DNA of 64,000 bases from Terriglobia bacterium. Its GTDB lineage: Bacteria > Acidobacteriota > Terriglobia > Bryobacterales > Bryobacteraceae. Positions 5,178 to 8,423 of this stretch are shown one piece after another. Numbering within the stretch: position 1 is the first letter of the stretch; each line of letters starts with the position of its first letter. The notes below the pieces were generated by a model. That model had not been told where the DNA came from and searched no databases. It saw only the letters and a program-made list of their open reading frames with translations. Location: assembly GCA_020073305.1 (NCBI GenBank), contig JAIQFK010000031.1, positions 1-64,000 of the forward strand. Direction: 5' to 3'. A program made the position numbers and the translations under genes.

Positions 5178-5207
5178 TTGACCGCTGTTTGCGCTTGCTC
5201 GTATCCT
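5178..5207 (+). promoter_or_regulatory. Candidate sigma-70 promoter for the AhpD-like pair
   Basis: TTGACC (5178-5183) and TATCCT (5202-5207) are separated by 18 bases and lie 33 bases before the ATG of the first AhpD-like gene. The -35 box matches consensus at 5 of 6 bases and the -10 at 4 of 6. This is a pattern match only. Confidence 0.35.
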
Positions 5208-5240: not shown

Positions 5241-5819
5241 ATGCCGCACATTCGACTGTCTGAAGGGCTGCCGGGCATTCGAGGGCTATTCGCATTCCGG
5301 CCGGAAACTGCAAAACCGCTATGCGAACTCGCTAAGGTCCTGTTGCACACGCCGGGCACACTGTCGCTCGCTGAGCGCGAGTTGATCGCTACCTACGTCT
5401 CTTCTCAGAACGATTGCCATTACTGCCAGAACGCGCATGGGGCGATCGCCGCATGTCATCTTGAGGGCAACGAAAACATCGTCTTCGACGTAAAGCGAGA
5501 TTTCGAGCACGCGAACATATCGGAGAAGCTCAAGAGCCTGCTGGCGATTGCCGGAAAAGTGCAGCGCGGCGGCAAGAACGTGCAGCCTGAAGACGTGAAG
5601 CGCGCGCGGCGGCATGGCGCCACCGACCAGGAAATTCACGACACCGTGCTGATCGCCGCGGCCTTTTGCATGTACAACCGCTATGTGGACGGCCTGGCGA
5701 CCTGGGCGCCGCCGGATCCTTCGTCTTACCGCGAGCGCGCCGCCAAAGTGGCGCGGGACGGCTACCTGGTTATCCCCGCGGACCTGCAAGCCGCTCAGGC
5801 GGGGCGATCACAACCATGA
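5241..5819 (+). CDS. AhpD-like carboxymuconolactone decarboxylase-family protein (CxxC form)
   Basis: The 192-residue protein carries the AhpD/peroxidase-related signature: Glu47, then twelve residues on Cys59-His-Tyr-Cys62, then His66. This reproduces the E118/C130/C133/H137 spacing known for mycobacterial AhpD, where the relay activates the second cysteine. The likely role is a thiol-based peroxide or disulfide reductase of the cytoplasm. A GGGGGAGG Shine-Dalgarno sequence precedes the ATG. Its stop overlaps the start of the next gene (ATGA), a related AhpD-like protein in which the second cysteine codon is TGA. The two are therefore a duplicated, co-translated pair. Confidence 0.85.
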   Translation: MPHIRLSEGLPGIRGLFAFRPETAKPLCELAKVLLHTPGTLSLAERELIATYVSSQNDCHYCQNAHGAIAACHLEGNENIVFDVKRDFEHANISEKLKSLLAIAGKVQRGGKNVQPEDVKRARRHGATDQEIHDTVLIAAAFCMYNRYVDGLATWAPPDPSSYRERAAKVARDGYLVIPADLQAAQAGRSQP

Positions 5820-6412
5820 AGCCCATATTTCTGCCGGAAGTCGAAAGCAATCCGCAGCCGTCTCCCACGACCGATCTCATCCGCGTGGCGCAGTCAGCGG
5901 GGACCGAATACCCGCAGATCTGGCACCTGTTTGCCTACCGCCCGCAGGCGACAACAAACCTTGGCGCATTCACGCAGGAGATCATGCGCGGTGAGTGTCC
6001 GCTCAGTCCCGGGATCCGCGAGCTGATCGCCGCCTTCACTTCGTACGGGAACGATTGTCCGTTTTGAACGAAGTACCACGCCGCAGTTGCGGCGAACCTG
6101 CTGGGCAGCGAAGAGCTGGTATGGAGCGTGCTTCGGGACCTGGAAAACTCCGCGCTCCCTGAAAAGGAGAAAGCGCTATTCCGCTTCGTCGCCAAGGTCA
6201 ATCATCAGGCCTCGAAAATCACGGCCGACGACATGGCGCCGCTCCACGCCGCGGGATGGACGGATGAATCCATCTACTACGCCATGACGGTATGCGCGCT
6301 CTTCAACTTCTACAACCGGTGGATCGACGCCGCAGGCGTGCACGCGATGTCTGAAGAGGCTCACCGGCAGTTCGGCGCGCGCACCGCACAACACGGCTAC
6401 ATCCGGAAGTAA
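5816..6412 (+). CDS. Probable AhpD-like selenoprotein (C-P-F-U), TGA at codon 84
   Basis: The frame opens at ATG 5816 and is interrupted by one TGA at 6065-6067. It continues in the same frame to 6412 with clear family similarity on both sides, giving 198 residues if the TGA is read. Around it stand Glu69, Asn-Asp, Cys81-Pro-Phe-TGA84 and Thr-Lys-Tyr-His88. Glu, the first Cys and His have exactly the spacing of the upstream paralogue, so the TGA falls on the second, reactive cysteine of CxxC. A perfect GC hairpin follows at the distance expected of a bacterial SECIS element. AhpD-like selenoproteins with CxxU are known. The alternative is a nonsense mutation or a sequencing error; no selA/B/C/D gene is in this window. 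Confidence 0.75.
6065..6094 (+). promoter_or_regulatory. TGA codon plus SECIS-like hairpin
   Basis: TGA occupies 6065-6067. Eleven bases later CGCCGC (6079-6084), loop AGTT (6085-6088) and GCGGCG (6089-6094) form a perfect six-pair stem. The loop begins 20 bases from the U of UGA and has G as its second base. Known bacterial SECIS elements have the loop about 16-37 bases from UGA with a G in the first two loop positions, so the fit is good. A GC-rich genome makes short hairpins common, so the hairpin alone would not be convincing. Confidence 0.6.
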
Positions 6413-7892: not shown

Positions 7893-8423
7893 ATGCCAGT
7901 CGATTCCATCAAGGGGTCTCTGCGGGAAAAAGGGGTTCGCCTCACGCGGCAACGGGAGCTGCTCCTGGAGTTGATCGACAAGAGCGGCGAGCATCTGGAC
8001 GCCGAACGGCTTTTCCAACTGGCGCATGAGCGAGATCCCAGGCTCAATCGGGTCACGGTCTATCGCACGCTCAAGCTGCTGAAGCAGGGCGGCCTGGTGG
8101 ACGAACTGGACCTGATGCACTACGGAGGCGATCAGCACTACTACGAAACGCGCATGAAGCAGGAACATGCGCATGTCATTTGCCTCCGCTGCGGCAAGGT
8201 TGAAGAATTCTTCGGAGAGCCCCTGCAGAAACTACGCCGCCAGATCGAAAGCCATTTCGGATTTCAGATTTTATTGGCCCGGACCGAAGTAGGAGGCTAC
8301 TGCTCACACTGCCGCTCCTTGCGTGCCCGGGAGATGGAGCAAGCGGCGCGTGAAGCCGCCCGGCAGGCCATCGTCGAGCCCAACGGGGTGGGTCCCCGTT
8401 CTCGTTCCAAGCGCCCGGCATGA
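7893..8423 (+). CDS. Fur-family transcriptional regulator
   Basis: The 176-residue protein has the Fur winged helix (RLTRQRELLLELI, RLNRVTVYRTLKLL) and the metal-binding half. Structural zinc is probably held by Cys97/Cys100 and Cys137/Cys140, with the HAH motif at 92-94 as part of the regulatory site. The residue aligning with PerR Asp104 is Glu105, which argues for Fur-like rather than peroxide-sensing behaviour; that alignment is by eye. The last 35 residues form a basic tail. Translation is coupled to the next gene by an ATGA overlap, and GAGGGAAC precedes the ATG. It lies 1.5 kb downstream of the AhpD-like pair, a possible but unproven regulatory link. Confidence 0.88.
   Translation: MPVDSIKGSLREKGVRLTRQRELLLELIDKSGEHLDAERLFQLAHERDPRLNRVTVYRTLKLLKQGGLVDELDLMHYGGDQHYYETRMKQEHAHVICLRCGKVEEFFGEPLQKLRRQIESHFGFQILLARTEVGGYCSHCRSLRAREMEQAAREAARQAIVEPNGVGPRSRSKRPA

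Follow-up and report, generated by a model that had tools for sequence, protein, structure and literature searches.

AhpD-like selenoproteins of the CxxU type (TIGR01926/COG2128), in which selenocysteine (Sec, U) stands in the second position of a CxxC motif, have been known since 2005. Twenty-seven such sequences were described from the Sargasso Sea (PMC1088965), 299 were assigned to the group AhpD-like 1, COG2128, in the GOS data (PMC2398784), and TIGR01926 CxxU proteins are listed in a 2026 review (PMC13188914). Clusters of selenoprotein genes are likewise known. The protein described here joins this family, and the original prediction was right in taking the family as one already known to use selenium (PMC1088965, PMC2398784, PMC13188914). 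The less usual part is the layout of the locus, in which a gene for a Cys-containing paralogue is followed directly by the gene for the Sec protein.

The gene pair and its in-frame TGA

The window, i.e., the whole stretch of 64,000 nucleotides that was analyzed, contains two overlapping AhpD-like genes, a "short-form" gene with CxxC and a "long-form" gene with an in-frame TGA. The features of the locus are as follows:

5178-5207, plus strand: possible sigma-70-like promoter for the pair (TTGACC-18-TATCCT), weak, a consensus match only
5241-5819, plus strand: upstream short-form Cys paralogue, 192 aa, AhpD-like CxxC (Cys59-H-Y-Cys62), TIGR01926 / PF02627
5816-6412, plus strand: predicted long-form AhpD-like selenoprotein gene, 198 aa with Sec84 (Cys81-Pro-Phe-Sec84), TIGR01926 / PF02627
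6056-6058, plus strand: codon of Cys81, the expected resolving partner of Sec84, TGC or TGT in 147 of 149 homologues
6065-6067, plus strand: in-frame TGA, codon 84, predicted from the codon comparison of homologues to be read as selenocysteine
6079-6094, plus strand: predicted SECIS hairpin, stem 6079-6084/6089-6094, loop AGUU at 6085-6088 with the conserved G at 6086

The frame at 5816-6412 holds a single in-frame TGA, at codon 84 in the motif NDCPF[TGA]TKYH, and the spacing Glu69-Cys81-U84-His88 of its product equals Glu47-Cys59-Cys62-His66 of the upstream Cys protein. The original prediction had pointed to a frame reading through this one TGA, to its residue spacing being that of the upstream paralogue, and to a six-pair hairpin with a G-bearing loop past the TGA; translation bears out the frame, the spacing matches residue by residue, and the hairpin lies at 6079-6094. 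Both proteins match PF02627 and score above the curated TIGR01926 cut-off of 81.8 bits (95.2 bits for the Sec gene, 89.3 for the Cys gene). With about 33% identity and separate clades in the 149-row tree, the partners are by these measures old paralogues and not the products of a recent duplication.

The stop TGA of the Cys gene overlaps the ATG of the Sec gene by 4 nt (ATGA), and a GGAGG ribosome site lies shortly 5' of the ATG of the Cys gene. The consensus scan for promoters gave the one match listed above, where 0.6 would be expected by chance, and none between the Cys gene and the Sec gene. No ahpC was noted among the genes neighboring the pair, and a phage search was without match. A Fur/PerR-family regulator gene is located at 7893-8420, just after xseA and ~1.5 kb downstream of the pair; its score falls under all curated cut-offs and does not distinguish the iron from the peroxide type. 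Scanning the whole window for further TGA-CxxU/UxxC frames with hairpins returned 10 matches, of which those other than the TGA at 6065 look like chance or ordinary stops.

Reading of codon 84

The query used to find homologues had Cys at codon 84, so TGA played no part in their selection. The resulting set comprises 149 distinct ORFs from several mixed collections, deduplicated by exact ORF sequence only, such that its counts are of sequences and not of independent events. Codon 84 is TGA in 112 of these ORFs, TGC or TGT in 36 and TCC in one. All 112 TGA forms are free of a second in-frame TGA or any other stop in the matched stretch; Glu69 and His88 are invariant throughout the set (149/149), as is Cys81 in all except two ORFs. 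The TCC (Ser) codon is found in L098, from a genome (G020) without selA and tRNA-Sec matches, and in two Bryobacteraceae contigs (L073, L074) the first Cys of the CxxC is replaced by Thr (TPFC), altering the resolving and not the Sec position. Past the TGA, dN/dS is 0.04-0.23, near or under the value of the first half in most comparisons, which points to purifying selection on the half of the protein encoded beyond this codon.

A relative of the Sec protein is present in 102 of 200 genomes of the order (E <= 1e-15), and by a hand count of the search table the TGA form occurs in 90 of the 200. Relatives become less frequent beyond the order (9 of 296 genomes of the phylum at E <= 1e-40), and by the stop count of the search seven of those nine have one in-frame TGA. 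The form also extends to cultured organisms: the complete plasmid 2 of Gemmatirosa kalamazoonensis (NZ_CP007130; L193:2501-3100) carries a homologue 62% identical to the Sec protein, in which codon 84 is likewise TGA and the hairpin is the same, and the TGA form is found in cultured Myxococcus and Corallococcus strains, together with the same hairpin in Myxococcus isolates. The occurrence of the same TGA in Gemmatirosa and Myxococcus excludes an assembly error.

The hairpin, CGCCGC[AGUU]GCGGCG, has six pairs and a loop 17 nt past the TGA. Its folding energy is not unusual against shuffled sequences (z -0.40; p about 0.09 for codon shuffles, a control whose codon pool included those of the hairpin), for which reason energy is not used as evidence here, and an Rfam scan of the hairpin matched no family. 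The pattern of conservation is more telling. A five-pair core stem is present in 107 of the 112 TGA forms vs. 1 of the 37 non-TGA forms, where codon resampling predicts it in 44% and 2%, respectively, and every TGA form has G at loop position 2. The loop alternates between GGUC and AGUU through linked synonymous changes that leave the Ala-Val protein sequence constant: in the TGA forms the Ala-Val codons are GCG-GTC in 65 and GCA-GTT in 38, with no mixed combination, and the Ala+5/Ala+8 codons are GCC-GCG in 103 and GCT-GCA in 5. The loop type switches about 12 times on the tree, and in six of six independent pairs on well-supported branches both loop positions switch together (sign test p 0.03). 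This covariation is consistent with a GU tip closed by either a G-C or an A-U pair. Such a closed GU tip is the kind of element bound by SelB. We accordingly read the hairpin at 6079-6094 as a putative bacterial SECIS element, for whose loop the synonymous exchange of GGUC and AGUU provides a clear natural covariation test. The evidence that exceeds chance is the conservation of the TGA at the same codon in 112 distinct ORFs, the synonymous covariation in the hairpin and the purifying selection past the TGA.

The machinery for Sec insertion is encoded in the source genome (6.98 Mb, 99.9% complete, a draft of 51 contigs): profile searches returned selA at 508 bits, selB at 359 bits and selD at 368 bits, and tRNA-Sec (selC) was matched at 76.5 bits and given the anticodon TCA by ARAGORN. 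A second SelB match, on contig C34, is EF-Tu, and a second above-cut-off tRNA-Sec match (C26, 48 bits) is tRNA-Ser according to ARAGORN. Further genes of this genome contain an in-frame TGA. Its own SelD has one at residue 11 of the matched frame (L015:1531-1533, contig C36), followed by a seven-pair hairpin with a GGU loop; a paralogue 54% identical to the Sec protein reads CPFU (C38:160980-161567); and another paralogue, a member of the same family as the upstream Cys gene, reads CFFU (C37:19018-19548, minus strand; L004) and has a hairpin with a GGUC loop and a less regular stem. Across the order, a hand count places selA and/or tRNA-Sec in 87 of the 90 TGA-bearing genomes, and selA is found in 84 of these 90 vs. 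82 of the remaining 110. Neither gene was matched in the other three TGA-bearing genomes (G137, G160 and G169, 83-95% complete), where the absences are probably assembly gaps.

Taken together, the comparative evidence and the machinery present in the genome strongly support Sec decoding, and we hold it very probable that the UGA at codon 84 of 5816-6412 is decoded as selenocysteine. The decoding would be carried out by SelB and tRNA-Sec, with the hairpin at 6079-6094 acting as the SECIS. The original prediction of a likely selenoprotein with its TGA on the second Cys of CxxC is in this way supported by homologues, SECIS and machinery. Of the checks it had proposed, the alignment of homologues gave TGA or TGC/TGT at codon 84 (one TCC) with no stops elsewhere, the examination of the SECIS gave a hairpin that covaries among TGA homologues, and the search for Sec genes gave all of selA, selB, selC and selD.

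A true stop, whether in a pseudogene, by a sequencing or assembly error, or between two separate half-proteins, would be suggested by the draft state of the genome and by the table 11 ORF list, in which 5666-6067 and 6128-6412 are separate; gene calling with every TGA as a stop splits such genes. We consider it very improbable in view of the 112 distinct ORFs with the same TGA, cultured isolates included, the purifying selection past it, the structured synonymous covariation right behind it and the Sec machinery in the genome. Indeed, the presence of the same TGA in many homologues, including those of cultured organisms, makes sequencing error, pseudogene and reassigned code untenable. That the TGA is read as Trp, Cys or Gly through a reassigned code or near-cognate read-through is hardly credible, given that each gene has one TGA, invariably at the redox position that is otherwise occupied by Cys, that TGA also ends genes here (e.g., the upstream Cys gene) and that tRNA-Sec, SelB and a SECIS are present.

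Recurrence of the pair and exchange of Sec and Cys

The Cys paralogue at 5241-5819 would be translated first and the Sec gene would follow by coupling through the ATGA overlap, so that one transcript would give rise to sulfur and selenium versions of related enzymes in the same cell. Coupled translation through this overlap is likely. The original prediction had singled out the co-translated Cys/Sec pair as unusual and suggestive of a division of labor: the overlap is real and Cys-Sec pairs are kept in two other genomes, but the pair is one arrangement among several. Adjacent short and long genes occur in at least 7 of the 17 genomes having the short form, a lower bound because not every short-form locus was read. 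The short gene comes first in six of these seven genomes, and the spacing within the pairs is -4 to 78 nt; the long partner has Sec in three (the window, G135 and G188). G135, a second species of the same genus, has a Cys-Sec pair with the same ATGA overlap; in G188, of another genus, the gap is 8 nt and two short genes stand in front.

It is quite possible, if somewhat short of probable, that the Cys/Sec neighborhood has no functional meaning and reflects the chance tandem placement of a duplicating family. Most Sec orthologues stand alone, the long form has Cys in four of the seven paired genomes, Cys/Cys pairs occur in other genomes, and tandem arrays of the short form alone are found in G045 and G105. 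Against chance placement stand the recurrence of the short-long pairs with their prevailing order and close spacing, the retention of the Cys-Sec version in G135 and G188, and the age of the partners, whose divergence speaks against a fresh duplication. At the other end of the range, the Cys and Sec proteins might be obligate partners, coupled in translation and acting jointly (e.g., as a mixed Cys/Sec oligomer or in sequential redox relays), with the supply of selenium determining how much selenium enzyme is made relative to sulfur enzyme from a single transcript; we regard this as doubtful. A division of labor between the Cys and Sec paralogues is conceivable. The pair lets sulfur and selenium be compared directly, as nature provides them, in the same fold and probably on the same transcript.

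Members of the long-form clade commonly have Sec, and the Cys forms are interspersed among them. Seven Sec/Cys changes are needed in all on the tree, a quick tree whose root is not known, and their direction is one that we infer. In the short-form family TGA is found at 1 of 29 places in the order, namely in the CFFU copy on contig C37 of the window's own genome, pointing to an apparently independent change from Cys to Sec within this genome. Elsewhere in this family, a stretch of about 24 kb in G045 (C37:5872-29408 of that genome; also L100) contains five or more AhpD-like copies of the short form, one of them split by TAG. Sec is usually pictured as replacing Cys rarely and recently, whereas in this AhpD-like branch it is the common state across many Bryobacteraceae, with repeated exchange of Sec and Cys.

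Fold, likely chemistry and comparison with known systems

The AlphaFold model of the Sec protein (pLDDT 95.8) matches D. radiodurans AhpD (6k40) best among solved structures (Z 22.0, rmsd 2.9, 183 residues), with the peroxidase-related 2prr, 2oyo, 3c1l and 2pfx at Z 20-22 and M. tuberculosis AhpD (1knc) at Z 10.7; a sequence search of solved structures agrees with these fold matches (6k40, 2prr/2oyo/2pfx). In the model, Cys81-Sec84 lies at the start of helix 82-96, like the CxxC of AhpD, and the 12/3/4 spacing of the Glu/Cys/Sec/His relay is that of AhpD, whose relay in M. tuberculosis is, as in the original prediction, E118/C130/C133/H137. By this analogy, Sec84 would take the place of the active-site Cys that is activated in AhpD by the Glu/His relay (here Glu69 and His88). 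Deprotonated via these residues, its selenolate could attack a peroxide or disulfide, Cys81 would act as the resolving thiol to give a Cys81-Sec84 selenenylsulfide, and a thiol or lipoyl donor would then reduce this bond and reset the enzyme. We consider peroxide or disulfide reduction the moderately probable chemistry of the Sec protein.

The Sec assignment may be right and the chemistry nonetheless be a different one suited to Sec in the AhpD/CMD fold, e.g., reductive dehalogenation, as in the AhpD-like debrominase Bmp8, or a role in the uptake and breakdown of an aromatic substrate. Bmp8 (6ohi/6ohj) shares the fold over 177 residues (Z 16, rmsd 4.0), and among the stand-alone Sec loci (L021-L070), whose neighbors were named by eye from sequence, 11 have a gene for an Oar/TonB-dependent-like outer-membrane protein upstream on the same strand and 9 have an MFS transporter gene downstream, a setting nearer to substrate utilization than to a peroxide operon. 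We judge this alternative unlikely, as Bmp8 is only 15% identical and the closest matches in both fold and sequence are the peroxidase-related AhpD proteins.

Compared with M. tuberculosis and D. radiodurans AhpD, the window protein has the same fold and Glu-x11-Cys-x2-Cys/Sec-x3-His spacing, but has Sec for the second Cys, an N-terminal part longer than that of 1knc, and no AhpC neighbor seen beside the pair. NF041238 (AhpD_rel_CFYUT, the Sargasso "hypothetical protein 1") is a related domain with CxxU, against which the two proteins of the pair score too low for membership, at 29.9 and 36.1 bits vs. an equivalog cut-off of 175. The putative SECIS resembles that of E. coli fdhF in having an xGUx apical loop about 17 nt past the UGA; it differs in the lack of a bulged U and in a loop that alternates between GGUC and AGUU and starts one nucleotide nearer the UGA. 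No earlier description of an AhpD-like Cys/Sec pair with coupled translation turned up in our literature search, which was incomplete in coverage and directed at selenoproteins of Acidobacteria and at tandem Cys/Sec gene pairs in bacteria. The closest described systems are the Sargasso and GOS AhpD-like selenoproteins, which belong to the same family and have CxxU with Sec in second position and a SECIS with G in a small apical loop. Whereas those sequences come from marine metagenome reads, the window protein comes from soil Acidobacteriota of a lineage where the subfamily commonly has Sec, the predicted SECIS shows dense covariation and the selenoprotein gene has a Cys partner.
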